In this document: piece by piece, positions 8,474 through 37,603 of the stretch
Position numbering within the stretch: the stretch's first letter is position 1
How the letters are laid out: every line of letters begins with the position of its first letter
Assembly (NCBI GenBank): GCA_011772205.1
Contig: WVZY01000019.1
Span: 1 to 38,420, forward strand
DNA: 38,420 nt
Direction: 5' to 3'
Source of the DNA: Candidatus Latescibacterota bacterium
Lineage (GTDB): Bacteria; Krumholzibacteriota; Krumholzibacteriia; WVZY01
Made by a program: the position numbers and the translations under genes
Notes under the pieces: generated by a model
What the model was told of the DNA's origin: nothing
Seen by the model: the letters and a program-made list of their open reading frames with translations, nothing else
Databases searched by the model: none

Positions 8474-10873
8474 ATGAAGAAGCTATTCTCTGCCTTTATC
8501 TCATTCGCTCTGATCATTTCTTTTGGCCTATCGGCATTTGCTGGAGAGATCGAAACCAATTTTGCAGCCTACCTGGAAACCCTCGGTGATAACGATTTCG
8601 CTTCAGCCATCATCTACCTTCAGGATCGTCCCGACATAAGGGCCTTGGATAACGTTTTACGGGCTGAAAAAGCGACGATGGCAGTACGCCACGAACGCGT
8701 GCTTGCTGCATTGAAAGAAGCTGCCGATAGATCCCAGCCAGCTTTTATCGCTTATCTGGACGCTAGGAAGGCCGCAGGAACGGTCAAAGGTTATACCAAG
8801 TATTGGATAATGAACCTGGTGATCGTGTCGGCGACCAAAGCCGAACTCAAGAGTATTGCAGCGCTCGGCGACATAGAAATGATCGAAGGGAACTTCAAAG
8901 CGACTCTGATCGATAAGGTCGGCGAAGCCTACACGGGTAATCCTGCAGCCGGCATCGGGGTCACCAACAGCTTGATAGCCATCAATGCAGACAGGGTGTG
9001 GCACGAACTCGGATACACCGGAAACGGTACATTGGTCGCCAATATGGATACAGGCGTGGATGGATCTCACCCGGCACTGACTGACAGGTGGAGAGGCAAC
9101 TGGTACCCCTGGCAAGAATGCTGGAGGGATGCGCTGGGAACCGGCACGCAGTACCCTACTGATACTCACGGACATGGCACGCACACAATGGGCACCATGT
9201 GCGGGGCAGGCCACGCGACAGAGGACACCGTCGGTGTCGCTTTCGAAGCGTGGTGGATAGCCGACAATTCCATCAACCAGGGTGTCAGCCCGGAGTTCGA
9301 TAACGATGTGTTGGGTGCTTTTCAGTGGTTTACCGATCCTGATGGAGATCCTGGCACCACCGATGACGTTCCAGATGCGCTGCAGAACTCCTGGGGCATC
9401 GATTCCCGATTTGGCTATGATTACCAAGATTGCGACTACCGCTGGCAAGAAGCGATCGAAAACTGTGAGGCAGCCGGTGTCGTGGTTACCTTCAGCGCCG
9501 GAAACGAGGGACCCTCCCCTCAAACTCACAGATCACCGGCCAACATCTGCAATACACCCACGGTCAACTTTTCCGTGGGAGCGGTAGATTGCGAGAACTA
9601 CGGCTGGCCTTACCCCATCGCGTACTTTAGCAGCCGTGGCCCCTCCGACTGCGATGGCTCGACCATAAAGCCCGAGGTGTCTGCGCCTGGAGTGTCTGTC
9701 TACTCCTCTTATCCAGGCGGTAGCTACGTCCGGATGAGCGGCACTTCCATGGCCGGACCTCACGTTGCCGGTGTCGTAGCACTGATGAGAGAGGCCAACC
9801 CAAATGCCGACGTGCAAACGATAAAAGAAATCCTGATGAACACGGCACGCGACCTGGGAACGACGGGCGAGGATAATACTTATGGTTGGGGAATCATCGA
9901 TGCGTATGAAGCGGTGCTGGCCGTTTCTGTGCCCGATGAAATACCACCAGTGGTCACCGTGACGGCTCCCAATGGTGGTGAGGTACTGACCGCGGGAACG
10001 ACGTACACCATCACATGGATTGCTACCGATAACGTATCCGTAACTCAAACCAGTATCTATTATTCCTATGATGGCGGGACCACCTATAATCTAATCGCCA
10101 ACCTGGCGGGAAATCCGGGCTCCTATGACTGGACCGTACCGAACACGCCTTCAACCACCTGCCTGGTCCAAGTCTATGCATACGATGCAGCCGATAACGA
10201 AGGCTCGGACACCTCTGATGCGTACTTCACCATCGAGGAATACACGGGCCCTTATGTCTGGGTGAATAGCATCAATCTATCCATCGTGACAAAAGGTCCC
10301 AACACCAATGCGACAGCTGAAGTTCTCATTTGGGATCAGGACAACAACCCCGTTGCACGGGCTACCGTCCATAGTCATTGGGATGGGCTTACGCAGGATA
10401 CCGATGTTTTCAACACAAAAAGGACAGGCTTGGGATCTTGCAACTCCGACAAGCTCAAAAACCCAGTCGGCTGGTGGTATTACTATGTGGATGATGTGGT
10501 CATCGAAGGATACGTTTTCAGAAGCGATCTCGGCGAGACCTCTGACGCTATCCTGGCAGGACCAGGTACCGCTAGTTTCTCTGCACCGATCCCGGGCGAG
10601 TTCTCCGTCTCCCAGAACTATCCCAATCCTTTCAATCCCACGACGGAGTTCTCCCTGAACCTGCCCGAAGATGCTCACGTAAGCTTCGTGATCTACAACG
10701 CAGCCGGGCAGAAGGTCAAGACTTTGGCGGATGAGGATCTGCCCGCGGGAATCAGAACGCTGACCTGGGACGGCACCAACGAGAAGGGCGTGACCGTACC
10801 GAGCGGCATCTACTTCTATCGGGTAATCTCCGGCAACAATGTGGCAACCAGGAAGATGATGTTGCTCAAGTAG
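8474..10873 (+). CDS. Secreted subtilisin-like (S8) protease with T9SS sorting domain
   Basis: About 799 residues. Predicted secreted or surface-attached serine endopeptidase. Signal peptide at residues 1-23 (ends AFAGE). An I9-like propeptide region follows to about residue 150. The S8 catalytic domain spans roughly residues 175-480, with Asp192 (VANMDTGVDGSHP), His234 (HGHGTHTMG), the oxyanion Asn344 (SAGNEGPS) and Ser425 (SGTSMAGPHVAG). All catalytic residues are intact. Next comes a Ser-Thr-rich/Ig-like domain around residues 490-590 (NGGEVLTAG..YTITW), then a domain of unknown type. The C-terminal sorting domain of about 90 residues starts at SQNYPNPFNPTTEFSL and ends RKMMLLK. Ribosome-binding site AAGGAGG lies upstream of the ATG. 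It has its own promoter, leader and terminator, so it is monocistronic. Confidence 0.95.
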   Translation: MKKLFSAFISFALIISFGLSAFAGEIETNFAAYLETLGDNDFASAIIYLQDRPDIRALDNVLRAEKATMAVRHERVLAALKEAADRSQPAFIAYLDARKAAGTVKGYTKYWIMNLVIVSATKAELKSIAALGDIEMIEGNFKATLIDKVGEAYTGNPAAGIGVTNSLIAINADRVWHELGYTGNGTLVANMDTGVDGSHPALTDRWRGNWYPWQECWRDALGTGTQYPTDTHGHGTHTMGTMCGAGHATEDTVGVAFEAWWIADNSINQGVSPEFDNDVLGAFQWFTDPDGDPGTTDDVPDALQNSWGIDSRFGYDYQDCDYRWQEAIENCEAAGVVVTFSAGNEGPSPQTHRSPANICNTPTVNFSVGAVDCENYGWPYPIAYFSSRGPSDCDGSTIKPEVSAPGVSVYSSYPGGSYVRMSGTSMAGPHVAGVVALMREANPNADVQTIKEILMNTARDLGTTGEDNTYGWGIIDAYEAVLAVSVPDEIPPVVTVTAPNGGEVLTAGTTYTITWIATDNVSVTQTSIYYSYDGGTTYNLIANLAGNPGSYDWTVPNTPSTTCLVQVYAYDAADNEGSDTSDAYFTIEEYTGPYVWVNSINLSIVTKGPNTNATAEVLIWDQDNNPVARATVHSHWDGLTQDTDVFNTKRTGLGSCNSDKLKNPVGWWYYYVDDVVIEGYVFRSDLGETSDAILAGPGTASFSAPIPGEFSVSQNYPNPFNPTTEFSLNLPEDAHVSFVIYNAAGQKVKTLADEDLPAGIRTLTWDGTNEKGVTVPSGIYFYRVISGNNVATRKMMLLK

Positions 10874-13135: not shown

Positions 13136-13909
13136 ATGAAACAAGGTACCTTTAACACGATCGTTCTTCTCGTCGCTTTCTTGATCAGCTGTGGTGTTGT
13201 TTTTGGGTGGATTCCCGCTATCGACAAGGAGGATCCCACCACAGGCCGCCCACAAAATCCGATTCTTCACCAGATCAAGCAGGCGGGGCCGCTGGTTGCC
13301 GTGCTTCTGACACTGCTGCTCATGGTCTTTGCCTATGTTGTGGAGCGGATGCTCACACTCAGAAAAGCCCGGGGGAAGCGGAGGATCCAATTATTCGTCG
13401 CCGAGTTCGGGAAGGCGATACACCAAAACCGTCTGGATGAGGCTTCGAAGCTTTGTGACAACCAGCGAGGATCGGCGGCGGCAGTGCTCAAAGCGGGTGT
13501 TGACCAGTACCAGCGCCTGTCCACCGTCGAAGATCTCTCCCCCGAAAAGCGGCTGACGGAGACTCAGCGCGCGATCAACGAAGCGCGTTTGCTCGAGGTG
13601 CCGTTCCTCGAGCGAAACCTGATCGCGCTCTCGACGATCGCGTCGATTGCGACCATGGTCGGGCTGTTGGGAACAACGATTGGAATGATCCGTGCGTTTG
13701 CTGCGATGGCCCGCCAGGGAGCGCCGGATGCCATCCAGCTCGCCATGGGCATTTCCGAAGCGCTCGTGAATACCGCCGGTGGGCTTTTGGCTGCCATTCT
13801 CGGTATCGTTGCGTACAACGTCCTCGTCAATTGGGTAGACCAGTTCAACTACAATATCGATGAAGCGTCCTACGTGATGATCGAGCTATTGAAGGAAAAG
13901 GAAGGATAG
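13136..13909 (+). CDS. exbB: MotA/TolQ/ExbB proton-channel family protein
   Basis: About 257 residues. Inner-membrane stator component that uses the proton motive force to drive TonB. A hydrophobic N-terminal helix (FNTIVLLVAFLISCGVVFGW) is followed by a short periplasmic loop and GPLVAVLLTLLLMVFAYVVE. A cytoplasmic region (about 75-155) comes next, then the conserved pair LSTIASIATMVGLLGTTIGMI and GISEALVNTAGGLLAAILGI. GLLGTTIGMI and the final helix pair are the family signature. ATG start; GAGAGGTTCTGGGA lies just upstream. Its stop is 4 bases before the first ExbD gene. The TolQ/ExbB/MotA-like distinction rests on the neighbouring ExbD and TonB genes. Confidence 0.92.
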   Translation: MKQGTFNTIVLLVAFLISCGVVFGWIPAIDKEDPTTGRPQNPILHQIKQAGPLVAVLLTLLLMVFAYVVERMLTLRKARGKRRIQLFVAEFGKAIHQNRLDEASKLCDNQRGSAAAVLKAGVDQYQRLSTVEDLSPEKRLTETQRAINEARLLEVPFLERNLIALSTIASIATMVGLLGTTIGMIRAFAAMARQGAPDAIQLAMGISEALVNTAGGLLAAILGIVAYNVLVNWVDQFNYNIDEASYVMIELLKEKEG

Positions 13910-13913
13910 CGCC

Positions 13914-14417
13914 GTGGTGATTCTCAAGCCAAAACGCATCCCTATCAAAATCGACATGACACCAATGGTGGACATCGCTTTTCTCCTGTTGGTGTTCTTC
14001 ATGTCCACGACGCAGTTTCGACCTCCTGAGGAATTCCCGGTGAGTTTGCCGGCGAGCCATTCAGAGATCAAGCTTCCGGAATCGGACATTATTATTATTA
14101 CAATTCCCAAGGCGAACAAAGTCTTCCTGACCACCGGCGCGGCCAATCTGGACCTCAGGTACGGGTTCATCCAGGAAACGGAGACGGGGCAGGTTACCAG
14201 CAAGGAATTTTCAACGGGAGAGTTGCCGGTGACCATCACCAACTACCGGCTGCACAATCCGAAGGTCCGCATTATCGTCAAGGCGGACAAAGAGGCCGAT
14301 TATGGGCTGGTGGAGGATGTGATGTACGCCCTGCAGAAGAATAGAATGACCCGTTTTCATCTCATCACCGAACTCGAAGCCGAGCCGGAAGCCGTTCGCC
14401 CGGCCGGTGAGATCTGA
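13914..14417 (+). CDS. exbD: ExbD/TolR-family protein, first copy
   Basis: About 167 residues. Partner of ExbB in the proton-driven stator. The signature IDMTPMVDIAFLLLVFFM places the conserved membrane Asp at residue 20. The C-terminal periplasmic domain ends ...RIIVKADKEADYGLVEDVMYALQ, which is the ExbD/TolR consensus. Start is GTG at 13914 or 13917, 4-7 bases after the exbB stop, with AAGGAAGGA overlapping the exbB end, so translation is probably coupled. A long insert (KLPESDIIIITIPKANKV... to FSTGELPVTI) makes it larger than E. coli ExbD. Confidence 0.92.
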   Translation: MVILKPKRIPIKIDMTPMVDIAFLLLVFFMSTTQFRPPEEFPVSLPASHSEIKLPESDIIIITIPKANKVFLTTGAANLDLRYGFIQETETGQVTSKEFSTGELPVTITNYRLHNPKVRIIVKADKEADYGLVEDVMYALQKNRMTRFHLITELEAEPEAVRPAGEI

Positions 14418-14435
14418 TAGAGGAGGGCTTGTCCA

Positions 14436-15032
14436 ATGGCGATTGCCGATGTTGCCAGTACGAGATCGCGCGGTGAAGCGCAACCCTGGAAAAGACCGCG
14501 TCCCGGCATCCGAATTGATATGACGCCGATGGTGGACATCGCCTTTTTGCTGCTCGTCTTCTTCATGGTAACGACCGTCTTCCGCCTGCCTCAGGCTATG
14601 GAAATCAATCTTCCTCCCGAGACAGAAGTCCCCATGGAACTCGAGGTCGGTGAGTCGCGCCTTCTGACCTTTCGGGTGATCGAATCGGATGAGCTTTTCT
14701 TCAACGTCGGGAACGATTTGCCCCAGCCGCTGCCGTGGGACTCGCTGCGGGTGAAGCTCATGGAACGCAAGGCGGCCGTCGGATTCGACAGCGAAGGTCG
14801 CAGCCGCCTCATCATCGTAGCCCGTGTTTGCCGCCTGGCGAATTACGAAAGCATGGTCAATCTCATCGATGAGTTCAACGTGGCCAAGACCACGCGCTTC
14901 AGTGTGGACCGCTATACCGCCGCAGACGATTCCGTATTGCACCTTGCCGACATCCCGGCCAACTGCATGGCCCTGATCGCGGAAGGCGAAGAGGCCAGGG
15001 CAACTGGAGGCGAAGCCATTGATACCGAATGA
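14436..15032 (+). CDS. exbD: ExbD/TolR-family protein, second copy
   Basis: About 198 residues. Paralogue of the preceding gene with the same IDMTPMVDIAFLLLVFFM core (membrane Asp34) after a longer cytoplasmic N-terminus rich in Arg and Pro. The periplasmic domain (LIIVARVCRLANYESMVNLI) matches ExbD but diverges from copy one. AGAGGAGGG is the ribosome-binding site, and 18 bases separate the two genes. Two non-identical ExbD proteins next to one ExbB is common in FCB and deltaproteobacterial TonB clusters, where they may form a hetero-dimer. That pairing is inferred here. Confidence 0.92.
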   Translation: MAIADVASTRSRGEAQPWKRPRPGIRIDMTPMVDIAFLLLVFFMVTTVFRLPQAMEINLPPETEVPMELEVGESRLLTFRVIESDELFFNVGNDLPQPLPWDSLRVKLMERKAAVGFDSEGRSRLIIVARVCRLANYESMVNLIDEFNVAKTTRFSVDRYTAADDSVLHLADIPANCMALIAEGEEARATGGEAIDTE

Positions 15033-15161
15033 CCGAATGATTAATATATATATGAGGACACAGAGCCGTTCGTGCCACAACAGGCTGTTGCCGCATGCCG
15101 ATCCAGGCGGGCGCCCCGCGTGCGGTGCTCGCAGCCAGATGTAGCGGAGGGAAGGCTTCAA

Positions 15162-15908
15162 GTGGAAGTTTACGAAGAATTTGCGAAGAACCTCTACGGT
15201 TCCTTCGAACTGAAGAAATATATGGCCCGCTATATCTGGATTGGCTTGGCCGTTTCGGTGGGTTTTCATGGGACCGCTATCGGGTCGTATGTCTTGGGAT
15301 TGGCGCTCACACGGGAGCCTCCTGCGCCCAAGCGCATTGTTATTTTGGACGCCTCGAAGCTCGGCGCGCCTCCCTCCATTACGGACAAGACCGTCCCGCC
15401 GACGATCAAAGTCGCGCGGCCCAAGATTGCCCCGCCCGCAGCAGCCAAGCCTGTGGCGATCCCGGATGAGGAAGCAAAAGAAGAAGTAACCATTCAGTCA
15501 CAGGAGGAGCTTGCCATATCCGCCACGGCTACGGATGATACGACAATATTTGGTGGCGAGGGTGTCGAGGTCATTATCCAGGAAATGGAAACGGAGGACG
15601 TAATTCCATCTCCCGATGCTTTTACACCTTTCGAGATTCCTCCTCAAGCCATCCTCAGCCCAAAGCCAGCGTATCCCCAAATGGCGAGGGATGTGGGCAT
15701 GGAAGGGTTCGTATTAATGAAGGTCTATGTGGACAAAAAAGGCAATGTGAAGAAATGGGAAGTCATGAAGGCCGAGCCGACTGGATTGGGCTTCGAAGAG
15801 GAGGTCATCAAGGTCATCCCTAATTGGAAATTTACTCCAGCGATCCAGCAGAACCAGCCCGTGGGTGCCTGGATTGCCGTTCCCTTCAATTTCGAATTCA
15901 AGGAATAG
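15162..15908 (+). CDS. tonB: TonB-family energy transducer
   Basis: About 248 residues. It spans the periplasm and passes energy from ExbB/ExbD to outer-membrane receptors. A cytoplasmic N-terminus (VEVYEEFAKNLYGSFELKKY) is followed by one membrane helix (IWIGLAVSVGFHGTAIGSYV). A Pro/Lys/Ala-rich periplasmic stretch follows (PPAPKRI...ARPKIAPPAAAKP). The TonB C-terminal domain runs from LSPKPAYPQMARDVGMEGFV to the end and includes GFEEEVIKVIPNWKFTPA. The open frame extends upstream to 15072, but I place the start at GTG 15162: AGGGAAGG lies about 8 bases before it, and the upstream residues have no TonB character. A GTG start is unusual for this cluster. A terminator follows at 15919. Confidence 0.9.
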   Translation: MEVYEEFAKNLYGSFELKKYMARYIWIGLAVSVGFHGTAIGSYVLGLALTREPPAPKRIVILDASKLGAPPSITDKTVPPTIKVARPKIAPPAAAKPVAIPDEEAKEEVTIQSQEELAISATATDDTTIFGGEGVEVIIQEMETEDVIPSPDAFTPFEIPPQAILSPKPAYPQMARDVGMEGFVLMKVYVDKKGNVKKWEVMKAEPTGLGFEEEVIKVIPNWKFTPAIQQNQPVGAWIAVPFNFEFKE

Positions 15909-15918
15909 ATACGTTACG

Positions 15919-15940
15919 CCTCCTCCGGGAGGCTTTTTTA
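15919..15940 (+). terminator. Rho-independent terminator after tonB
   Basis: GCCTCC (15919-15924), loop TCCG, GGAGGC (15929-15934), then six T residues. It lies 11 bases after the tonB stop. The next gene starts only 23 bases downstream, so some read-through is likely. Confidence 0.85.
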
Positions 15941-15962
15941 TTATCTTTTCCCAAGCAGAATC

Positions 15963-16241
15963 ATGCATCTGCTCCGTCTCGTTTTGGCCGTCCTGTTCCT
16001 GTCTGTGGGAATTGGAATTCTCGCGGGTTGGATTCTTCCAGGACTGCCGGAAGGCTCCGGCATGCGGCCGATGCTGGGCATTGTAACCATTCTGTTCGGG
16101 CTTTATCGAGGAGTGATCTTTTTTTTCGTGCCCCCGCAGAAGCGGCGCCCTTATGGTGGTTTTCGCAAAAGGTTCCTGGACTTCGAGGAAAAAAAGGAGG
16201 CCCCGCCGGACGACGATGAGTCGAAAGATCGCAAAACCTAG
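15963..16241 (+). CDS. Small two-helix membrane protein
   Basis: About 92 residues. Two hydrophobic segments (LLRLVLAVLFLSVGIGILAGWIL and MLGIVTILFGLYRGVIFFFV) are followed by a charged, probably cytoplasmic tail (RKRFLDFEEKKEAPPDDDES). No family is recognised. It lies directly after the tonB terminator and overlaps the start of the next gene by 26 bases. The tight overlap and shared strand suggest it works with the following lipoprotein. The ATG has no strong ribosome-binding site. Confidence 0.6.
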   Translation: MHLLRLVLAVLFLSVGIGILAGWILPGLPEGSGMRPMLGIVTILFGLYRGVIFFFVPPQKRRPYGGFRKRFLDFEEKKEAPPDDDESKDRKT

Positions 16242-17091
16242 CTCTGTGGTGCTCTGCCTGCTCTTTCTCGCGTACTGCAGCTCAGGCGAAAAGGCGTCCA
16301 CTCCCACTTCAGGTTCTGCATTCATCTATACTTCCTCAGCGGTCGAGGGCCTGGCTTCAGCACTCGGCCGGACTTTCGAAGGCTATTACCCCGCAGCACG
16401 TATCGATTTCAGTTCTCTCCGCACACGTGCCGCGGTCGAGTCCCTTCTTTTCGGCACGCCGCAGGAGATCTTCCTGGACCGGCCGCTCGTGCCGGCCGAA
16501 TCCCTGGCGGCCGCACAGAACGGCATTCCCATCTATGAATATCCAGTGGCAACACTGCCACTCTATTTTGCGGTACATCCAGAGAACTCCGTGCAGGCGA
16601 TCGATTCGGTTGCTCTTCGCAAGTTTTTGACCGGGGCCTGGGAAAGCTGGAGTGAAATCGGCGGTCCGAATATCCCATGCCATCCTTATCTCCCGCTCCC
16701 CGGGGAAGGAGGCTGGGAAGCGTGCATGAATTACTTCGGATTGTTGGATACCGTCATTGCGGTCGTCTGCACGACGCAAACGGACCTCTTGAAAAAAGCG
16801 GAAGCAGATCCGGGAGCGCTGGCTGTCCTTGCACTACCCATCAAGCAGACATCCCTTCGTAAGCTCTGGTGGCGGACGGGCAGCATCGAAATCCCACCCA
16901 ATATCAAAACCATTGTCGAGGAGCCCCGTTACCCCTTCATGCTCACCATTACCTACATAACGAACCGGCAGAAGAAGGATGTGGCGGCCGGCTTTCTCAC
17001 CTTCATCGTATCCAATTCCGGCCAGAAAGTGGTCGCCAACGCGGGTTACCGTCCGGCGACCATTCCCGTACGTATTATCGAAATGTTTTAA
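16216..17091 (+). CDS. PstS-like substrate-binding lipoprotein
   Basis: About 291 residues. Resembles phosphate-type ABC substrate-binding proteins (PBP-like superfamily) and probably sits in the periplasm attached to a membrane. The frame is open from 16153, but ATG 16216 gives a lipoprotein signal (RKIAKPSSVVLCLLFLAYC, Cys21). The residue before the Cys is Tyr, which is unusual for a lipobox. Family features are FIYTSSAVEGLASALGRTFE, IDFSSLRTRAAVESLLFG, VALRKFLTGAWESWSEIGG and a closing FLTFIVSNSGQKVVANAGYRP, typical of PstS C-termini. No pst transporter genes are nearby. Its placement after the TonB module suggests a link to TonB-dependent uptake. Overlap with the upstream small gene implies coupled translation. 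Confidence 0.75.
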   Translation: MSRKIAKPSSVVLCLLFLAYCSSGEKASTPTSGSAFIYTSSAVEGLASALGRTFEGYYPAARIDFSSLRTRAAVESLLFGTPQEIFLDRPLVPAESLAAAQNGIPIYEYPVATLPLYFAVHPENSVQAIDSVALRKFLTGAWESWSEIGGPNIPCHPYLPLPGEGGWEACMNYFGLLDTVIAVVCTTQTDLLKKAEADPGALAVLALPIKQTSLRKLWWRTGSIEIPPNIKTIVEEPRYPFMLTITYITNRQKKDVAAGFLTFIVSNSGQKVVANAGYRPATIPVRIIEMF

Positions 17092-21705: not shown

Positions 21706-22714
21706 TGCAGGAATACCAGACCTTCTGAGACACATTATGCTGTTTTCTTAATGGACAATGGGAGGTCGTATTCATGAAGAAAGAACTTGCTGAAGCTCTG
21801 GTGATCCGGCGGAAAATGTTCATTGTGCTGTATGCCAGGGACGCCCGAAACATCCGTAAAGCGTGTCAAGAGGCCGGTGTTCCACGATCGACGTTCTATC
21901 GTTGGAAGAAAGCCTTTGAGAAGGACGGCGTAGAAGGCCTGATGCGCAAAAAGCCCATCGCAAAGAGCCATCCACGGCAGCTCCCGCCGGAAGTCGTCGA
22001 GAAAATCCTTCATCTCAGACACACCTATCATCTCGGTCCGCAGAGAATCACCTGGTACCTCGAACGCTATCACGGGGTTGAGACCTCGTGTTCGAGCGTC
22101 TATCGCACGCTCGTTCGACATGGTCTGAGGCGCTTGCCGAGAAAAGTGGGGCGTCGGGCGATTCACACTCGTCGCTACGCGAAACAAGTTCCGGGTCATC
22201 ACATCCAAGTGGACGTGAAGTTCCTGACTCTTAAAACCGCCGGCGGCAGAAAAATCCGTCGTTTTCAATACACGGCCGTCGATGACGCCACTCGGGTGAG
22301 GGCACTCAAGATCTACAAGCGTCACAATCAGAAAAGTGCCATCAATTTCGTTGATTACGTGATCGAAAAGTTCCCGTTTCGCATCCATACGATCCGAACC
22401 GACCGGGGACACGAATTTCAAGCGCACTTCCACTGGCATGTTGAAGACAAGGGGATCAGGCATGTCTATATCAAACCGCGCACGCCACAGCTCAACGGGA
22501 AGGTCGAGAGATCCCACCGTTCAGACCAGGAGGAATTCTATCAGTTGCTCACCTACACGAACGATGTGGATCTAAACAAGAAATTGGCGGAGTGGGAAAA
22601 CTTTTACAACTACAACCGGCCACACGGCGCGTTCAACGGAAAAGCACCTTACGAGGCACTGAGGAGTATGTTAAGGTAACTAGAGGTTTGTCCCATAAGG
22701 TGCGCGATATCACA
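21706..22714 (+). mobile_element. IS481-type insertion sequence, about 1.0 kb
   Basis: Carries one complete transposase gene. The left end TGCAGGAATACCAGACCTTC..GAGACA (from 21706) and the complement of the right end (22689-22714) form an imperfect inverted repeat: CCTTNTGNGACA is shared, and both ends begin TG. The terminal third base here is C where the related copy at 38359 has T. I see no clear target duplication. It has inserted between two older transposase fragments. Confidence 0.75.
21774..22679 (+). CDS. IS481-family DDE transposase, intact
   Basis: About 301 residues. Cuts and rejoins element ends during transposition. An N-terminal helix-turn-helix region (RNIRKACQEAGVPRSTFYRWKK) precedes the integrase-core domain from about residue 130. 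Catalytic residues are Asp147 (QVDVKFL), Asp210 (RTDRGHEF) and Glu245 (NGKVERSHR), with 35-residue spacing of the last pair. The C-terminus has NYNRPHGAFNGKAPYEAL. ATG start with GGGAGG upstream. No frameshift is seen, so it may be active. Confidence 0.93.
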   Translation: MKKELAEALVIRRKMFIVLYARDARNIRKACQEAGVPRSTFYRWKKAFEKDGVEGLMRKKPIAKSHPRQLPPEVVEKILHLRHTYHLGPQRITWYLERYHGVETSCSSVYRTLVRHGLRRLPRKVGRRAIHTRRYAKQVPGHHIQVDVKFLTLKTAGGRKIRRFQYTAVDDATRVRALKIYKRHNQKSAINFVDYVIEKFPFRIHTIRTDRGHEFQAHFHWHVEDKGIRHVYIKPRTPQLNGKVERSHRSDQEEFYQLLTYTNDVDLNKKLAEWENFYNYNRPHGAFNGKAPYEALRSMLR

Positions 22715-25735: not shown

Positions 25736-25774
25736 ATGGGTTAAAATGGATTTGCCAACTCATTTTTAACCCAT
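25736..25774 (+). ncRNA. Candidate structured RNA upstream of the IS110 transposase
   Basis: ATGGGTTAAAATG (25736-25748) pairs with CATTTTTAACCCAT (25761-25774) around a 12-base loop, with one bulged T. Just upstream, CCAC-ATA-GTGG and GGTAT-ACTGTAA-ATACC are smaller hairpins (about 25665-25730). IS110-group elements are known to encode a bridge RNA in the non-coding left end upstream of the transposase; this 198-base gap (25596-25793) is the right place and size. The RNA itself and its loops are not proven. Confidence 0.35.
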
Positions 25775-25793
25775 GAGACAAAGGAGGCACACC

Positions 25794-26756
25794 ATGTGGC
25801 ATGTCGGTATTGATTTAGGCCGGAGGACTCTTTACGTCGCTGCTGTTCACGACAGCGGCCTAGTCCGTGATCCAGTGACCATCGACTGCGACGATAGTAA
25901 ACAGATTCTACGAACCTTCAAAGAGCTGACACCATTTCGAGCAGTCATCGAAGCGACGGGCACGTATCGATGGCTTTTCCGATTGTTGCAACCATATGGC
26001 ACTGTGGTCCTGGCTCACACCCTCCGCTTACGTGCAATTGTAAACCGGCGTAGCAAAACGGACAAGCTAGATAGCCGCTTGCTAGCTAACCTGTTGCGGA
26101 TTGATCAGATTCCACTTTCCTATATCCCGAGCGATGAGTATCAGTATCTGCGGGAGATCACTCGAGACCGGGCAAGGCTTTCCCGATTGATGTCGGAGGC
26201 CAAGAACGGTTTGCGGGCCATTCTTGGGCGCAATAACCTCGTAGCTCCGTATCGCGTTCCGTTTGGTCCCAGAGGGTTGAGTTGGTTTGCACAACAGAAT
26301 TTCGCCTCTGCGGACAACACCGTACGTGACGAGTTATTGGATCGGATCACGCATTACAAGCTTCAGATGGCTAGCATCGATGAGAAGCGAGGGGAGTTGA
26401 AGGAGTCATACCCTCAAGTTGAGGCATTATTAGATATTCGCGGTATTGGTCTCTACCTTGCCCTATTGATTGTTGCGGAGACAGGCGATCCCGAACGCTT
26501 CAGGTGCGCAAAGCAGGTCGGAGCTTATTCCGGCTTGACAGCGAAGGTTAATCAATCTTTAAAAAGTGGATCGATCCTGAGGGGGCACGTCAATTTGTGC
26601 TTCAGTGAATCAACTCTTGCGCATCGCCGGGTCCTCCTTGTTCCTCGTAAGACTTTAGTGCAAACCCAGACGACTGTCAAACGTGGGGCTTCGTGGATCA
26701 AGATGTTGGGAGCAGGGCCTCTTTTCTACGGAGATCCCTCGATTGTCCTGCAGTAG
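25794..26756 (+). pseudogene. IS110-family transposase, probably frameshifted near 26600
   Basis: IS110 transposases combine an N-terminal RuvC-like DEDD domain with a C-terminal Transposase_20 domain carrying a Ser. Here GIDLGRRTLYVA, VIEATGTYRW and KTDKLDSRLLANLL give the DEDD residues. DIRGIGLYLALLIVAETGD and RFRCAKQVGAYSGLTAKVNQ give the C-terminal domain. After GHVNL the frame loses family character. The next frame reads CASVNQLLRIAGSSLF, which fits the expected G-S-x-x-L-R segment, suggesting a one-base shift and loss of the end. ATG 25794 has AAAGGAGG 6 bases upstream and is better than ATG 25773. The exact ends of the element are not identified. Confidence 0.75.
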
Positions 26757-26938: not shown

Positions 26939-28639
26939 ATGCGAACTTGTAAATACTTGGTCATCGTAACCCTCATTCTGACAATGCCTACCGGAGTGCT
27001 TGCAAAAAGTCCCCCAGATAGGTATGTATTGAGCCCCTACGAGGGTGGTTGGGTGTATCCCAGCGCAATGGCCGTTGATGATTCGGGCAATGTATTTGTC
27101 GCAGGCGGATTCTATAGTACCGTGGATTTCGGAGGCGGCTTGCTTGCAAGCGCAGGTTTTGATGATATTTTTCTGGCGAAGTTCGACTCAGACGGCGACC
27201 ACCTGTGGAGCCACTGCTTTGGAGATGAACGAGAACAACAGTATGTGATGGATATTGCCCTCGATTATGACGGCAATGTTATCATCACAGGATACTTTAA
27301 TTACGGTGAAATAGACTTCGGTGGCGGACCGCTTGGGTACGGAGCTTTTTATGCAAAATTCGATGCGGATGGAAATCACCTTCGAAGTGAAAGTTATAGT
27401 AACGGTGCAGCAGCAAGCATCGCTGTTGATCAATCGAACAACTTCATTATTACCGGAGAATTCTCATCAAGCATTGATTTCGGCGGTGAAGTACTCACCA
27501 GCGTGGATATTTATGACATTTTCATTGTTAAATTCGACCCAAACGGCAACCATATTTGGAGCTACCGTCACGGAGGTTCACAATGGCCCTCCAGAAAAAG
27601 CATCTCAATAGACGTAGCGGAGAATCTCATCCTATCGGGTTATTTTTCTAATAATATAGATTTTGGATGTGGGCCCCTCACCACTCCTGCATTGGATGAC
27701 TACATCTTTATTGCCAAAATGGATTCAGCTGTTAATTGCCTCTGGAGTGACGGTTATGAAACCTCACTTTCCATGCCGGAAGATGTCTTTTTAACGATTG
27801 ATAATTCAGGCAGCGCAATTATAACAGGCCAATTTATTGGCACTCTGAACTTTGGAGGAACACCTTTAATCAGTGCGGGAAGCTGGGACTTCTACGTAGC
27901 AAAATTTGATACCGGCGGGAATCACCAATGGAGCAATAGTTTTGGCAGCACAGAATTTCATGATCGCTCACACGCTATAACTACCGATAAATCGGACAAT
28001 ATCATCATAACAGGCAACTTCGAAAACAAGATTGACTTCGGAGGAGACGAACTCACCGGTGCCGGTTATATGAACGTTTTTCTCGCAAAGTTCACCCATG
28101 ATGGCAACCATCTATGGAGCAAGTCGTATGGTGATTCACTCGGATCTACAGGAAGGTGCGTCGCCGCCGCCGACGCCAAAAACATCTTCACGGCGGGATT
28201 CTTCGAAGATAACATCAACCTCGGTGGGGATACATTCTGGAATTTTGGCGATTGTGACATGTACATTGCAAAGCTCGACTCTATCGGTAATCATATTTGG
28301 AGCAAGCGATTCGGAAATTGGATTTCTTGGGAGGGCGTCGGTATTGACGATAGCCACTTGAAGCGAAATCTTGAATTCAGAGTTTACCCCAATCCCTTTA
28401 ATCCGCACACAACTATCTCTTTCACCGTTCCAATTCCGACTCATACGATTCTTAAAGTCTACGATGTGAAGGGGAAGCTAGTGCGTACGCTTCTAAATGA
28501 ACGTAAAATTCCCGGCAAGTACCGTCTAATGTGGGATGGTTCGGATGCCAATCACCTTCCGGTAGCTTCGGGAATTTATTTCGTTCGATTAGAGATCGAC
28601 GGATTTTCCACTACGAAGAAAATAGTGCATATAAAATAA
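26939..28639 (+). CDS. Exported SBBP beta-propeller protein with T9SS sorting domain
   Basis: About 566 residues. Signal peptide at residues 1-22 (YLVIVTLILTMPTGVLAK). The body consists of seven diverged SBBP-type blades, recognised by the recurring DFGGG or NFGGT turn (VDFGGG, IDFGGG, IDFGGE, IDFGCG, LNFGGT, IDFGGD, INLGGD) and by W-S motifs ending each blade (HLWS, HIWS, HQWS). This is probably a closed seven-bladed propeller for binding rather than catalysis. The last 80 residues are the sorting domain: VYPNPFNPHTTISFTV, LKVYDVKGKLVRTLL, SGIYFVRL, ending TKKIVHIK. It is probably displayed or released by T9SS. A paralogue lies about 490 bases downstream. Confidence 0.88.
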   Translation: MRTCKYLVIVTLILTMPTGVLAKSPPDRYVLSPYEGGWVYPSAMAVDDSGNVFVAGGFYSTVDFGGGLLASAGFDDIFLAKFDSDGDHLWSHCFGDEREQQYVMDIALDYDGNVIITGYFNYGEIDFGGGPLGYGAFYAKFDADGNHLRSESYSNGAAASIAVDQSNNFIITGEFSSSIDFGGEVLTSVDIYDIFIVKFDPNGNHIWSYRHGGSQWPSRKSISIDVAENLILSGYFSNNIDFGCGPLTTPALDDYIFIAKMDSAVNCLWSDGYETSLSMPEDVFLTIDNSGSAIITGQFIGTLNFGGTPLISAGSWDFYVAKFDTGGNHQWSNSFGSTEFHDRSHAITTDKSDNIIITGNFENKIDFGGDELTGAGYMNVFLAKFTHDGNHLWSKSYGDSLGSTGRCVAAADAKNIFTAGFFEDNINLGGDTFWNFGDCDMYIAKLDSIGNHIWSKRFGNWISWEGVGIDDSHLKRNLEFRVYPNPFNPHTTISFTVPIPTHTILKVYDVKGKLVRTLLNERKIPGKYRLMWDGSDANHLPVASGIYFVRLEIDGFSTTKKIVHIK

Positions 28640-29126: not shown

Positions 29127-32100
29127 GTGTTTTTTCGAAAATGCTTCCTCATTGTGCTTTTCATCCTTCTGATCTCCCCAGCAGCTTGGGGAGAAGATCT
29201 GATTCACCTCTGGAGCCAGCGGTTTGGGGATGGGAACGGTCAGTTTGGGCGCAGCGTCACGGTTGATAATTTGGGGAATGTAATCGTTACCGGTTACTTC
29301 TCGGGTACCGTGGATTTTGGCGGTGGACCGCTAACGAGTGCGGGAAGTTCGGACATCTTCGTGGCGAAGTTCGACCCCTGCGGCACTCACATCTGGAGCC
29401 ACCGCTTCGGCGATGCGGATGGTCAGTTTGCATTGAGCTGCACCGTCGATAGTATGGGCAACATCGTCGTGACTGGAGAATTCTGGGGTACAGTCGATTT
29501 TGGCGGCGAACCGCTAACGAGTGCGGGTGCCAAGGACATTTACGTAGCGAAGTTCGACGCCAGTGGCAATCACCTCTGGAGCCAGCGGTTCGGCGATGCG
29601 GGTAGTCAGGTTGCTTGGAGCATCACAACCGATAGCCCGGGGAGCGTCATCGTGACGGGGTACTTCGATAATACCGTGGACTTTGGCGGCGGGATACTGA
29701 CGAGTGCGGGACTTCTGGACATCTTTGTGGTGAAGTTCGATTCCGGTGGCAATCACCTCTGGAGCCAGCGGTTCGGCGATGCGACTAACCAGCGAGCGTA
29801 CAGCGTCACAGTAGACGATTCGGGGAACGTCGTCGTGACGGGATTCCTCGAAGGCACCGTTGACTTTGGCGGTGGGATACTGACGAGTGCGGGACTTGAG
29901 GACATCTTTGTGGCGAAATTCGATCCCGGTGGCAATCACCTCTGGAGCCGGCACTTCGGCGATGCCGGTTATCAGGTTGCCTGGAGCATCGTCACCGACG
30001 GTTCAGGGAACGTCATCATAACTGGGCACTTCAATAATACCGTGGACTTTGGCGGCGGACCGTTAACGGGCGCGGGAGGTACTGATATTTTTGTGGCGAA
30101 GTTTGACTCCAGCGGAAATCACGTCTGGAGCCAGCGATTCGGCGATTCGACTAGTCAGGATGCATATAGCGTCGCAGTCGACGGTTCGGGGAACGTGGTC
30201 GTGACCGGGTACTTCGTTGGCACCGTGGACTTCGGCGGCGGACCACTAACGAGCGCGGGATATAATGACATCTATGTAGCAAAGTTCGATTCCGGGGGCA
30301 ACCACATCTGGAGCCAGCGGTTCGGCGATTCGGATGATCAGCTTGCGGAAAGCGTCGTAGCTGATGGTTCCGGGAACGTTGTCGTGACCGGGTACTTCAT
30401 GGGTACCGTGGACTTCGGGGGCGGGCCGTTAACTAGTGTAGCACTAGATGATATTTTTCTAGTGAAATTCGGCCTCACGGGAATGGACTATATGGTAACC
30501 AACACGGGCGATAGCGGATGTGGATCCCTCCGACAAGCGATCACCTGCGCGAACGCCGATACTAGCATGAACAACATCATCTTTGACATTCCCGGTCCCG
30601 GGCCGCATACGATCCAACCAGACTCTGCTTTGCCGTATCTCACCAGTCCGGACGTCATCGACGGATACACCCAGCCGGGAGCGGCTCCCAATACCAGCGG
30701 CCCTTTTATTCCCGGCAACGCTGTGCTCAAAATAGAGCTTAGTGGAGCCGGTCTTCCGCCCAATGATTATTCCAATGGTCTCCTACTTGCTGGAGATTCC
30801 ACTGTAGTGCGGGGACTGGTAATAAACAGCTGGCCTGGGGCAGGGATTTCTGTGAGTTCTGACTACAATATTATCGAAGGGAATTACATCGGAACGGATA
30901 CCTCAGGCACCGTGGCATTAGCGAATCGTGACGGTATAATACTTTTAAATAATATCACGGGCAATCGAATTGGTGGCACATCACCCGGGGAGCGAAACAT
31001 CATATCCGCGAGTCTCGAACATAATATCGTTTTGACCTTTGGCTCGAATGGGACCCAAATAGAGGGCAATTTCATTGGAACGGATGTAACGGGCACGCTC
31101 GCGGTGGGGAGCGCCGGACACGGCATTGCGATAACCAACGCATGGGATAACACCATTGGCGGATTCGAAGCGGGTGCAGGAAATATCATTGCGTTTAATG
31201 GTTTCCGCGGGATTAGTCCGATCAGCAACATGGCCACGGGAAATGCTATCCATTCAAATCGAATTTTCTCCAACGGGGATCTCGGGATCAACCTTGGCCC
31301 GGACTACGTCACGCCCAACGATCCGGGTGATTTTGACATCGGACCAAATAATTACCAGAACTTCCCAGTGCTGACCTCTGCGGATGTCACTGGAAGTAGT
31401 GTGACGATTGAAGGATCGCTCAACAGCGGCGCAAGCCAGCCGTTTACGATCGAGTTCTTTTCGAATGGGGCTTGCGATCCAATGGGCTATGGGGAAGGAG
31501 AAAACCCGTTGGATACCATTTCTGTGGTAACGGACATGTCGGGAGATGCATCGTTTACCGATACGCTCCAAGTCGTCATACTGCCAGGATCATACATTAC
31601 CGCGACTGCAACCGATTCAAGCGGTAACACATCTGAATTCTCTGCCTGCATCCTGTCTATCAACACACCTCCGGGATCAAATGTTGCCGTGCAGCCGACA
31701 GACTCGATCACCGGGACGACACCCGTCACGGTGACGTTTGACAGCGTCGAAGTTGCCGGGAATACGACGTTGACGACAACGGACTCGGGGCCTCCTGTTC
31801 CGGGCACGTTCATTGTCGGTGACTCGGCAACTTATTACCATCTCTCAACAACGGCCGATTACACAGGCACGATCGAGGTATGCATCGAATACGACGAGGC
31901 CACCATCCCCAGTCCCGAAGACTCGCTCCGATTGCTTCACTACGATGAGTCGCTGATCCCACCGGATTATGTGGACAACACAACGAGCCTCGATACGCTT
32001 CTCAATATCATATGTGGTGTAGTGGATTCACTCTCACCGTTTGTGTTAGCCGTTCCAACACCGGGAACAGGGGTTTTTGATCACGTTATTCCCTCTCGGT

Positions 32101-32375
32101 ATGCGCTCTATCAAAATGTCCCCAACCCATTCAATCCATCGACGGTCATTCGATACGACGTTCCCCAAGGCGGTGGGATCGTAAAGCTCGCCATCTATGA
32201 CGTTACCGGCCGCTTGATAAAAACATTGGTAAATGAGCACAACAATGCGGGCAGAAAACGGGCGACCTGGGATGGTCGGAACAACGATGGCGTATCGGTT
32301 GCATCGGGTATTTACTTTTATAGAATGCAAGCCGCGAACTTCACTGCGACCCGCAAGATGCTGTTTCTGAAGTAA
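29127..32375 (+). CDS. Large exported SBBP propeller/beta-helix protein with T9SS sorting domain
   Basis: About 1082 residues. GTG start preceded by GGAAAGGGGG; signal peptide CFLIVLFILLISPAAWGE. Residues about 27-453 are seven near-identical SBBP repeats of exactly 61 residues (HxWSQRFGDA...GTVDFGGGPLTSAG..DIFVAKFD). Next, a right-handed beta-helix-like domain (GDSGCGSLRQAITCANADTS, NNIIFDIPG, then IEGNYIGTDTSGTVALAN, GNRIGGTSPGERNIIS). Ig-like strands follow, and the sorting domain starts at LYQNVPNPFNPSTVIRYDVP and ends TRKMLFLK. Cys residues are few. The function is likely surface binding or adhesion. It is separated from its smaller paralogue by about 490 bases and followed by a terminator. 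Confidence 0.92.
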   Translation: MFFRKCFLIVLFILLISPAAWGEDLIHLWSQRFGDGNGQFGRSVTVDNLGNVIVTGYFSGTVDFGGGPLTSAGSSDIFVAKFDPCGTHIWSHRFGDADGQFALSCTVDSMGNIVVTGEFWGTVDFGGEPLTSAGAKDIYVAKFDASGNHLWSQRFGDAGSQVAWSITTDSPGSVIVTGYFDNTVDFGGGILTSAGLLDIFVVKFDSGGNHLWSQRFGDATNQRAYSVTVDDSGNVVVTGFLEGTVDFGGGILTSAGLEDIFVAKFDPGGNHLWSRHFGDAGYQVAWSIVTDGSGNVIITGHFNNTVDFGGGPLTGAGGTDIFVAKFDSSGNHVWSQRFGDSTSQDAYSVAVDGSGNVVVTGYFVGTVDFGGGPLTSAGYNDIYVAKFDSGGNHIWSQRFGDSDDQLAESVVADGSGNVVVTGYFMGTVDFGGGPLTSVALDDIFLVKFGLTGMDYMVTNTGDSGCGSLRQAITCANADTSMNNIIFDIPGPGPHTIQPDSALPYLTSPDVIDGYTQPGAAPNTSGPFIPGNAVLKIELSGAGLPPNDYSNGLLLAGDSTVVRGLVINSWPGAGISVSSDYNIIEGNYIGTDTSGTVALANRDGIILLNNITGNRIGGTSPGERNIISASLEHNIVLTFGSNGTQIEGNFIGTDVTGTLAVGSAGHGIAITNAWDNTIGGFEAGAGNIIAFNGFRGISPISNMATGNAIHSNRIFSNGDLGINLGPDYVTPNDPGDFDIGPNNYQNFPVLTSADVTGSSVTIEGSLNSGASQPFTIEFFSNGACDPMGYGEGENPLDTISVVTDMSGDASFTDTLQVVILPGSYITATATDSSGNTSEFSACILSINTPPGSNVAVQPTDSITGTTPVTVTFDSVEVAGNTTLTTTDSGPPVPGTFIVGDSATYYHLSTTADYTGTIEVCIEYDEATIPSPEDSLRLLHYDESLIPPDYVDNTTSLDTLLNIICGVVDSLSPFVLAVPTPGTGVFDHVIPSRYALYQNVPNPFNPSTVIRYDVPQGGGIVKLAIYDVTGRLIKTLVNEHNNAGRKRATWDGRNNDGVSVASGIYFYRMQAANFTATRKMLFLK
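29205..30485 (+). repeat. Seven in-frame 183-bp tandem repeats
   Basis: Unit starts, each at the CAC of CAC-x-TCTGGAGCC, fall at 29205, 29388, 29571, 29754, 29937, 30120 and 30303, exactly 183 bases apart. The array ends at 30485. Each unit encodes one 61-residue propeller blade. Units remain close in nucleotide sequence (for example GGCGATGCG..., ACCGTGGACTTTGGCGGC), including at silent positions, with no indels. Confidence 0.92.
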
Positions 32376-32636: not shown

Positions 32637-35600
32637 TCATTTTAGAAGAACGATCTTACGATGATCGCTCCGGCCTGCCCACCGCAGACGGACGAAGTAT
32701 ACGCCGCTGGCCATGGCGTTCCCGCCACCGTCGGTACCGTTCCAACGAACTTCGTGCGTGCCCGCCGTTTGATAGCCATCCACCAGTTTTCTAACCAACT
32801 TGCCCTGCACGTCGTATATGGCAAGCTGAATATCCTGGTTACTGTCCAGGTCGTAGACCAAAGTGACCGATGGATTAAACGGATTAGGATGAGCGGAACG
32901 AAGCGCCGTTACCGTGGGCAAGGTATACTCCGGACCATCATCGATACCCGTCGGCGGCCCTTGATGCTCATAGGCACCCATATCCACGTTGGCTCCATAG
33001 ATCCGGGGATTGCCCTCAAGATCGGTCGTAACTCCGAGCGGCACGGCCGTATTATCGCCCGCATTGATGCCCGGCGACGAAGAATATATCGCTAAGGGGG
33101 TGTTTGGGAAGTCGGCGCCTTTGAACATCGGATCGGCATCGATGTTGTTGCCGGCGTCGATGCAACCAGATGGAAGACCCCCCTCGATGAGCGAATGGGA
33201 GATGATCGTCGTGCTCGAATAAACATAGATTTCATCACCGGCTGTCGCTGCGGAATTGCCCCATAGGATAGTGTTAGTAAGCGTCGCATTGTTTAAGTTG
33301 TTGTAAATCCCCCCACCACGGTTACTAGCGATATTCCCCGAAAAACTCACGTTGACGAGCATAAAATCGTTCTGGGTGTTGAACATCCCGCCGCCATCAT
33401 TGGCGGTGTTCTGCGAAAAAACAATATTCGTAAGCTCCGGATTGCAGCCGGCTTCAGAGTATATACCACCGCCGTATCTGCTCGCGAGATTTCCCGAAAA
33501 GGTCACGTTGACGAGCACAGGATCGGTAGCGCTGGTGTTGAACATCCCGCCACCGTCTCTGCTGGAATTCCCCAAGAAGATAACTTCAGTCAATAGTGAT
33601 TGACTATTCGAGCCTGAGTTGAACATTCCACCACCGCTTCGATTCGCGGAATTCCCGGAAAAGGTCACATGCGTAAGTTCCGCGTTTCCACCGATACTTA
33701 ATCCACCGCCATCGTTAAGGCTTGAATTATTTAAAAAGATCACATTTGTCAGCACCGAATTGCAGGCAGCGCCGGACATCCCACCACCATGGAAACGTGC
33801 GTAGTTTTCCGAAATGATCGCGTTTGCGATCGAAGGGCTGCCGTTTAGGATGTATATACCGCCGCCGTTGGATGTTGACGTAGAGTCTGACCTGCCCCTC
33901 GTTACGGTAAACCCATCGAGAACCGCTGTGGCATCTGCCCCGCTCCCGTTGACGACGTGATAGCTGTTGTCCGTGTCGCTGTCCGAGACTCCAATGTCGC
34001 CACTGAGAATGGTGGGGTGAGCGTCAGGATCACGCTCGCTGCGCATCGTTTCTGTGCCCTCAAATCCGCCGTAAATTTCAACGCCGCTGTAAAGCCGGAA
34101 TGTCGCCGAACGATCACTCCCGCCCGTCGGTTTATACGTCCCCTCTGCGACCCAGATTTCGGTCACCGAGCAGGTCACTGGAGCCCCGACAAGCCAGTTG
34201 AGGGCATCGCGAAGCTCGGTAAAAGCATCGCCCCAGGAACTACCGTCCGCAGACCCATTGGCGTCGACATCCACGTATAGTTTCTCGCCCACAGGGCAGG
34301 CAGCGACATGTTGAGCGTAGATATCCCCCGCATCGCTCCGCCTGTCTTCCCATGCGATAATTGCTCCACCTGAACCATCGGATGCCACGGTTGCCCAAGG
34401 ATTATCGCTCGTCGTGGGACTAACAGCGACGCCGTTCACTGCCCACTGCACGTTACCGAGACCATTTACGTGCTGTGTGTAGATGACCGAAGCTCCGCCA
34501 ACTCCCGAATAATCCAACCAGGCGATTATCGCGCCCCCCGAACCATCGAAGGTGACGACAGGCACTGCCTGATGGTCTGACGTGGTGCTGATCGCCACAC
34601 CGCTGGACCCCCACTTATAAATCCCCGAACCATCCACCCGCTGCGCGTAGATGTCTCCCGAGGTGCCGCTTCGCTCGTCTTGCCACGTGATAATCGCCCC
34701 GCCGGTGCCATCTGAAGTTATCGCCGGATTATATTGGCCGCAGCACACCGTAGGGGTCAGCCTAACGCCGTTGACCGTCCACTGGACGTTGCCGGATCCA
34801 TCCACCCGCTGCGCGTAAATTCTCTCATACTCCTGTCCGGCTCGCGCGTCCTCCCACGTGATAATCGCCCCGCCTGAACCATCGGATACGATGAAGGGTT
34901 TTAATTGGATCCCATACTCGTTGCACACAGGGACGCCATTGACTGTCCACTGGACGTTGCCCGATCCATCCACCCGCTGCGCGTAGATGTCAAAATAGGT
35001 GGTAGCTACGGCTCGCCTATCAATCCAGGTGATAATCGCCCCGCCTGAACCATCGGACTCAAGTTGGACTGGCCCGCCTTGAATGTCGGTTTCCGTACAT
35101 ATCGGAATGCCATTGGCCGTCCACTGGACGGTGCCCAAACCGTCCACCCGCTGCGCGTAGATGTCTCCCAAGACATCGCTTCGCTCGTCTTGCCACGTGA
35201 TAATCGCGCCACCTAATCCATCTGAGGTGAGTGCTGGGTGCTCTTGAATGCCTGACGCGGTACAAATCGCCACTCCGTTCACAGTCCACAGGACGTTACC
35301 CGATCCATCCACCCGTTGCGCGTAGATGTCACTACCACTTCTCGAGTCCTGCCACACGATAATTGCACCATCCAACCCATCGGACACGAGAGCGGGATTA
35401 GCCCCATTTGCCGCGCATATAACTTCACCATTGACTGTCCACAGGACGTTGCCGGATCCATCCACCCGCTGTGCGTAGATTCCAGAACCGCTTCTCAGGT
35501 CATGCCACGCGATGATCACACCGCCCGAACCATCAGATATCACTTGCGGGTTATCCTGCTCATTCAATGCGGTGCACACCGGAGTCCCGTCAGGGATCCA

Positions 35601-35684
35601 TTGTGCCGAAGCAACACAAGGTAAAAGAACGAATAAGACTGCGTAAACGAGTAGGACTCCTATGACGCTCTGGAAACTCTTCAT
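32637..35684 (-). CDS. Large exported repeat/beta-helix protein (choice-of-anchor Q type) with T9SS domain
   Basis: About 1015 residues. Signal peptide SVIGVLLVYAVLFVLLPCVASAQ. Residues about 27-455 are eight repeats of 50-58 residues with the core SDGSGGAIITWQDERSG, DIYAQRVDGSGNVQWTVNGV, predicted beta-propeller blades. Next comes a right-handed parallel beta-helix: LYVDVDANGSADGSSWGDAF, TYKPTGGSDRSATFRLYSGV, repeated NGGGIY / TFSGNSA..GGGMFN units, and IDAGNNIDADPMF...NVDMGAYEHQ, the choice-of-anchor Q pattern related to Pmp-like repeats. The sorting domain is AHPNPFNPSVTLVYDL, SGVYFVRLRW, ending HRKIVLLK. ATG with GGAGGGGGAC upstream. It faces the propeller genes tail to tail. Probably surface-exposed; ligand unknown. 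Confidence 0.92.
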   Translation of the reverse strand: MKSFQSVIGVLLVYAVLFVLLPCVASAQWIPDGTPVCTALNEQDNPQVISDGSGGVIIAWHDLRSGSGIYAQRVDGSGNVLWTVNGEVICAANGANPALVSDGLDGAIIVWQDSRSGSDIYAQRVDGSGNVLWTVNGVAICTASGIQEHPALTSDGLGGAIITWQDERSDVLGDIYAQRVDGLGTVQWTANGIPICTETDIQGGPVQLESDGSGGAIITWIDRRAVATTYFDIYAQRVDGSGNVQWTVNGVPVCNEYGIQLKPFIVSDGSGGAIITWEDARAGQEYERIYAQRVDGSGNVQWTVNGVRLTPTVCCGQYNPAITSDGTGGAIITWQDERSGTSGDIYAQRVDGSGIYKWGSSGVAISTTSDHQAVPVVTFDGSGGAIIAWLDYSGVGGASVIYTQHVNGLGNVQWAVNGVAVSPTTSDNPWATVASDGSGGAIIAWEDRRSDAGDIYAQHVAACPVGEKLYVDVDANGSADGSSWGDAFTELRDALNWLVGAPVTCSVTEIWVAEGTYKPTGGSDRSATFRLYSGVEIYGGFEGTETMRSERDPDAHPTILSGDIGVSDSDTDNSYHVVNGSGADATAVLDGFTVTRGRSDSTSTSNGGGIYILNGSPSIANAIISENYARFHGGGMSGAACNSVLTNVIFLNNSSLNDGGGLSIGGNAELTHVTFSGNSANRSGGGMFNSGSNSQSLLTEVIFLGNSSRDGGGMFNTSATDPVLVNVTFSGNLASRYGGGIYSEAGCNPELTNIVFSQNTANDGGGMFNTQNDFMLVNVSFSGNIASNRGGGIYNNLNNATLTNTILWGNSAATAGDEIYVYSSTTIISHSLIEGGLPSGCIDAGNNIDADPMFKGADFPNTPLAIYSSSPGINAGDNTAVPLGVTTDLEGNPRIYGANVDMGAYEHQGPPTGIDDGPEYTLPTVTALRSAHPNPFNPSVTLVYDLDSNQDIQLAIYDVQGKLVRKLVDGYQTAGTHEVRWNGTDGGGNAMASGVYFVRLRWAGRSDHRKIVLLK

Positions 35685-36803: not shown

Positions 36804-37603
36804 ATGTACGTACGATTTATGAGAAGGCCTTACGCTAAGCTACTTGGTTTTGCGTTTCTGCTGGTGCTGCAAATTTGGGCATCCGGCCTCATTGCCAAGC
36901 CCCCAGGACGCATGCACTACCAGGGATTCCTGTCCGACCCGACGGGCGTACCAGTGCCCGACAGCACCTATTCGATTAAGTTCACCTTCTATGACGCCGA
37001 GACCGGCGGCTCTTCGATCTGGACGGAAACCCAAAGCGTGTCCACCAAGAGCGGCTACTTCAGCGTGCTCCTGGGGAAGATCAATGCACTGGCCGACTCG
37101 ATCTTCGAAGACACCCTGTGGCTGGCACTTCAGATCGGGACCAACCCGGAAATGCCTCCCAGCCTTCTTGCTTCGGTTCCCTACTCTCACAGGGCGGCGG
37201 TGGCAGATCAGGTCGCGCAAAATTCAGTTGGGCGCGAACACATCAAGTTGACCATTTGATGGACATCCTCCGCTTCCTCGGGCATGTCATAGAAGACCCC
37301 GTGGGAATCGAGGAGCCGTCCCGGTTTGTCAACGCGCTTCATCAGAATTATCCGAATCCGTTCAATCCGATAACGACCGTTGTGTTTTCTCTCAAGGAAA
37401 AAGCGCACGTAAGTCTAAAGATATACAACGTGGTGGGGCAGCTCGTCCGGATACTCGTAAACGAAGAGCGCGGACCGGGAGAGTACGATGTGATATGGAA
37501 GCGTCGAAATGACAGAGGCGAGCCGGTGGCGAGCGGCGTGGATTTCTACAGAATGGTCAGGAAGAATTTCACGGACACAAAGAAGATGGTGATCATAAAG
37601 TGA
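36804..37603 (+). pseudogene. Split T9SS cargo gene (two frames, TGATG junction)
   Basis: The first frame (36804-37259) encodes a signal peptide (LLGFAFLLVLQIWASGLIAK) and a domain common in FCB surface proteins: MHYQGFLSDPTGVPVPDSTY, IKFTFYDAETGGSSIWTETQ, SVPYSHRAAVADQVA. It stops at TGA 37257. The second frame (ATG 37259 to 37603) carries a full sorting domain: NYPNPFNPITTVVFSL, LKIYNVVGQLVRILV, ending TKKMVIIK. Neither part would work alone: one has the export signal, the other the sorting tail. The simplest reading is a frameshift with loss of the middle of the gene. A translationally coupled pair through the TGATG overlap is the alternative. GGAGGGACGTC precedes the first ATG. Confidence 0.7.

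Follow-up and report, generated by a model that had tools for sequence, protein, structure and literature searches.

The window analysed here is a stretch of 38,420 nucleotides from Candidatus Latescibacterota bacterium (contig WVZY01000019.1). Its forward strand carries an Open Reading Frame (ORF) of 1082 amino acids with a GTG start (29127–32375), which comprises a signal-peptide-like N terminus, a propeller, a middle region and a type IX sorting tail. The hydrophobic N terminus (29127–29195) was recognized by eye as resembling a signal peptide, and residues 2–15 are modelled there as a low-confidence helix. It is followed by an array (29205–30485) of seven consecutive units, all in frame and each exactly 183 bp (61 codons). 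According to the unit alignment, units 1 to 7 occupy 29205–29387, 29388–29570, 29571–29753, 29754–29936, 29937–30119, 30120–30302 and 30303–30485, and the seven repeats of 183 bp without indels claimed in the original prediction are thus present exactly as counted.

Tandem Repeats Finder recovers the array at periods of both 183 and 366, with scores of 964 and 1193, respectively. Among the 21 unit pairs, nucleotide identity ranges from 0.67 to 0.81 and protein identity from 0.57 to 0.77 (median 0.67), and 25 of the 61 unit positions are invariant. The window contains 0 ambiguous bases, and with units as diverged as these a collapse of the array in assembly is unlikely.

Predicted export signals and gene neighbourhood

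The tail of the array protein (32121–32360) matches the C-terminal type IX sorting domain TIGR04183 of NCBIfam with 33.7 bits against a cut-off of 23, and this match overlaps a FlgD-Ig-like one; with the Pfam sorting-domain model PF18962 the tail scores 21.5, below the cut-off of 27. TIGR04183 matches the genome 102 times, with a single match falling short of the cut-off. SprA_N has one match over its cut-off, the PorV family has 13 (8 over the cut-off) and Peptidase_C25 has four, all over the cut-off, and the search of the genome with the GldL profile returned no match over the cut-off. Judging by the TIGR04183, SprA_N and PorV-family matches, the array protein is probably exported via a type IX secretion system; the PF18962 score and the GldL result speak against this. 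Matches to type IX sorting tails are found at five places in the window when the array protein and its adjacent paralogue are counted; the others lie at 8474–10873, 32637–35684 and 37349–37594, one of them on a subtilase.

Between the propeller and the tail, the middle region (30486–32090) is modelled at low confidence. No family of Pfam or NCBIfam matches it over the cut-off, and a relative of this region in the same genome gives beta-helix hits only below the cut-off; the sequence itself reads like a parallel beta-helix. Moreover, a protein of 1232 amino acids from the same genome (L147 1331–5029, contig C59) has a C-terminal region in common with the array protein and a different N terminus, with an identity of 57% over residues 120–628 of the C59 protein and 49% over 1–244. 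Because the C59 protein combines the same C-terminal region with another N terminus, the propeller head looks modular and exchangeable, as if domains had been shuffled within the same genome.

Other genes of the window include an IS110-type transposase upstream of the paralogue (25773–26756), which may be decayed since the match of its second domain is confined to profile positions 2–49 of 87, and an integrase-core transposase (21774–22679) that matches the IS481 leucine zipper over the cut-off. At 13136–17091 lies a run that includes a PBP-superfamily protein besides a MotA/ExbB-type channel and a TonB C-terminal protein.

Predicted fold of the array and of the adjacent paralogue

The array protein was modelled with AlphaFold2 from a 22-row alignment. 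Block means of pLDDT are 91–98 across residues 31–450, and values exceed 90 across residues 991–1080, while across residues 453–986 pLDDT is below 50 everywhere except at two residues. The model contains seven copies of each of the strands D, A, B and C. The first is a D at the N terminus, in the initial residues of unit 1, and the last is the C that terminates unit 7, so the first strand serves as the outer strand that closes the ring. In the PDB the model comes closest to CylK (Z 51.6 and rmsd 1.9 over 379 aligned residues, from model residues 29–452), which also heads the Foldseek ranking; the designed seven-bladed 7big (Z 34.5) comes next in the PDB, and then 2ymu (Z 34.3), whose title describes a highly repetitive propeller. 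At the level of structure prediction, it is therefore supported that the array forms a single closed seven-bladed propeller, as was originally proposed. The matches of the model in BFVD include giant-virus collagen-like proteins from Klosneuvirus (rmsd 1.8, 439 columns, 30% identity) and Fadolivirus (rmsd 1.6, 450 columns, 28% identity).

By sequence the array belongs with the SBBP family, whose Pfam model PF06739 scores over the gathering cut-off in the array protein (34.7 vs. 20.5 bits, 4 stretches), and the predicted structure has the propeller fold of this family. The array resembles SBBP proteins in its repeat sequence and in its spacing, about 61 residues being found in many relatives; nothing basic sets it apart, only its even spacing and high mean identity. 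The LipL53-family SBBP lipoprotein of Leptospira (NF047494) is another similar system, with the best stretch at residues 105–464, although the 249.3 bits of the array protein stay below the cut-off of 400 and it does not belong to that family.

Among solved structures, CylK is nearest both in sequence and in fold; its C-terminal propeller (PDB 7ron, 7fh6) shares with the array seven blades and a related sequence. This likeness raises the possibility that the propeller of the array protein is an enzyme, as in CylK. However, the alkylating reaction of CylK needs Arg105 in an N-terminal domain and Tyr473 in the propeller (PMC8916777). Only 26 residues precede the array in its protein, so a CylK-type N-terminal domain with Arg105 is absent. 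Tyr473 corresponds to unit position 49, as placed by eye allowing for the difference of 8 in residue numbering between 7ron and 7fh6; at this position the array shows S, K, L, E, T, N and D, with no tyrosine in any of the seven units. Since both key residues lack a counterpart, a CylK-type reaction by the array protein appears unlikely on these sequence comparisons, and we regard an enzymatic propeller as highly improbable.

We also considered a diversifying face of the propeller and dropped the idea: the 12 variable unit positions (at least 4 residue kinds) are not concentrated on either face. They lie in or beside the top-face loops (11, 12, 33, 48, 49), in the bottom turns (22, 23, 58, 59) and in the strands (14, 16, 31), with faces assigned from the modelled strand order and the description of CylK in PMC8916777.

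The adjacent paralogue (26939–28639, forward strand) is a protein of 566 amino acids with seven diverged blades and a type IX sorting tail. It contains seven outer-strand motifs, and the six stretches between them are 58–62 residues long with a mean identity of 36% (15 pairs). On this protein, a blade HMM derived from the array's units 1 to 7 gave 8 hits, the eighth of which is read as the last outer strand alone because each of the strand types A, B, C and D is present seven times in the paralogue model. The seven strongly diverged blades ascribed to this gene in the original prediction are accordingly borne out. The paralogue model, whose top match is also CylK (Z 47.9), opens with strand A and finishes with strand D, whereas the array protein runs from D to C, so the rings of the two neighbours are predicted to close at different seams.

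Relatives and number of blades

A protein search of 146 genomes found matches in 59, counting that of the window. From the genome collection, the best 80 of 89 loci were obtained, which by their record titles come from Bacteroidetes, Deltaproteobacteria, Verrucomicrobia and others. Six genomes of the window's family span five genera and include no other member of the window's genus; three of the other five have relatives of the protein and two gave no match. In the window's genome, the diverged neighbour is the only other match of the propeller at a threshold of E 0.001.

Among 101 complete ORFs scanned with the blade HMM, 66 have seven blades as their longest run when only detected blades are counted, and 75 when single missed blades are filled. 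This count, from which 17 ORFs at locus edges, four overlapping loci and both window proteins are excluded, comes from a sample biased towards seven because the query itself has seven blades. Exceptions among the 101 ORFs are 12 with six blades and runs of 11, 13 and 14. In locus L101 (2540–6028), for example, 14 units, twice seven, were detected at a spacing of exactly 70 residues. The exact number of seven in the array fits ring closure, since seven blades prevail among these relatives (75 of 101 ORFs, in a sample biased by the query).

In order to place the blades of the array, 113 blades from 16 chosen proteins were compared, and all seven array blades match best within their own array. 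A blade tree (105 rows, 15 proteins, 61 columns) is poorly resolved in most parts with unsettled bootstrap; the arrays of L083 and L043 each form a clade, and the blades of the window array do not form one (5 changes). Amplification within this lineage is thus not proven by the tree. When the array was compared at all ring shifts with 12 other arrays (a thirteenth duplicates another and is absent), the in-register position ranked first in three, second in six, and third or lower in three. This suggests, at most weakly, that other arrays may share some of the blade order, and positional orthology is not clear.

Propellers have been amplified repeatedly and independently, blade by blade, according to PMC9218822, and the origin of the array's blades agrees with such repeated independent amplification (PMC9218822; PMC6805158). 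Pereira and Lupas 2022 (PMC9218822) describe highly repetitive propellers with a median blade identity above 60%, and the array is alike with 0.67, a median of 21 unit pairs obtained outside the pipeline of that paper. It is also like them in that its blades are closest to each other, as seen among the 113 blades. Compared with the nearly identical examples in PMC9218822, however, its synonymous sites are far more diverged. The word SBBP is absent from the main text of that paper.

Divergence of the units

The dS values between units (Nei-Gojobori) are 0.31 for units 3 and 4, 0.48 for units 3 and 6, and 0.70–1.24 for the remaining 19 of 21 pairs, and dN is 0.15–0.31. The original prediction implied synonymous sites short of saturation, which is what we found: 17–62% of four-fold sites (first two bases equal) differ, compared with 73% expected at saturation. 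In 827 same-residue comparisons the codon is identical in 62%, against 36% expected from the codon usage of the ORF, so the similarity between units is well beyond chance.

Uniformity of the array was ranked by mean protein identity over equal-length unit pairs, with arrays of at least 6 such pairs included. The ranking has 53 rows, in which the window array is present three times via overlapping loci, leaving 51 distinct arrays; the window array comes 4th in the ranking and so belongs to the more uniform ones, with three other arrays in the sample above it. The array of locus L083 (3839–6301) has a mean blade identity of 0.84 in protein and 0.87 in DNA (10 equal-length pairs), and with such values it is probably a much younger amplification than that of the window.

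The original prediction further held that the array is young or kept uniform by gene conversion. This part is not borne out as worded, in view of dS of at least 0.70 in 19 of 21 pairs, units that are 67–81% identical and the lack of a global conversion signal (P 0.28; see below). Rather, the array is of moderate age and its units are drifting; a single tract, in units 3 and 4, is suggestive of a recent event.

A possible exchange between units

This tract covers part of unit 3 and the initial 9 codons of unit 4 (29679–29780), and 93 of its 102 nucleotides are identical to the counterpart in unit 4 and the initial 9 codons of unit 5 (29862–29963); 26 of 28 same-residue codons are identical. It may be a recent exchange, although the formal tests fail after correction. 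A GENECONV-like permutation of the longest identical run found no global signal of gene conversion over 105 polymorphic columns (smallest global P 0.28), and neither did the same permutation on 19 silent codon columns (smallest global P 0.62).

Within the quartet of units 3, 4, 5 and 6, the topology favoured by informative nucleotide sites changes along the unit. In codons 11–34, 10 of 12 sites group unit 3 with 5 and unit 4 with 6, while in codons 41–49 all six group 3 with 4 and 5 with 6; 0 of 1000 shuffles gave a switch as strong. In the mosaic test at codon level (64 tests) none survives correction; the smallest P is 0.0088, for units 1, 3, 4 and 5, and that for units 3, 4, 5 and 6 is 0.026.

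The switch could be read as the trace of a final growth step in which a two-blade module of 366 bp was duplicated, from units 3–4 to 5–6 or in reverse, after which an exchange of about 100 bp made blades 3 and 4 more alike again in part. The higher score of period 366 in Tandem Repeats Finder points the same way, as do the closest protein pairs, units 4/6 (0.77) and 3/5 (0.74). However, 9 of the 10 sites that pair 3/5 and 4/6 in codons 11–34 are first or second codon positions, so selection could explain this pairing; the closest pair at silent sites is 3/4, rather than 3/5 or 4/6, and the codon-level signal is lost on correction. We consider this sequence of events rather doubtful. Amplification from a two-blade fragment is reported in a single instance in PMC9218822, and among the literature titles on SBBP or propeller blades that were covered, a scope outside which most subscription journals fall, none is about recombination in SBBP arrays. 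If the ring did grow in this way, a closed seven-bladed fold would still be undergoing rebuilding by within-gene recombination.

The same tract and the same switch, together with the likely export of the protein, would also suit a repeat that is young, or under continual homogenisation, and that serves surface variation by shuffling its units or changing their number between strains. A surface antigen with a variable repeat number would be expected to have units nearly identical at the DNA level, however, and those of the array are not. The high dS of all but two pairs, the lack of a global conversion signal and the failure of the codon-level tests on correction argue against surface variation, as do the prevalence of seven blades among relatives and the presence of only one, diverged, further propeller in the genome. 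Such variation therefore seems very improbable to us.

Discussion

Taken together, we consider it quite likely that the units are the seven blades of one N-terminal SBBP-type beta-propeller, which was amplified in tandem and is carried by a binding protein probably exported via the type IX system. Tandem amplification of one blade or a few would have produced the array, and its number would have been held at seven by ring closure, as seven blades close the ring. The units would then have diverged, mostly under purifying selection, and units 3 and 4 may have exchanged one short tract in that time.

The array protein itself is most likely a secreted binding protein composed of a propeller head, a long middle region and a type IX sorting tail. 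Binding by the propeller is our best guess; the propeller would act as a rigid binding head, the middle region as a stalk and the tail as the export signal.

Generally, rings of this type are known to arise by such amplification, and the array is a neat but ordinary case of it, with no sign here of switching or variation. As an instance of blade amplification it is clean and of medium age; it comes from an uncultured lineage of bacteria and raises no new question. As a pair, the array and its much more diverged paralogue could help to date amplification relative to divergence.
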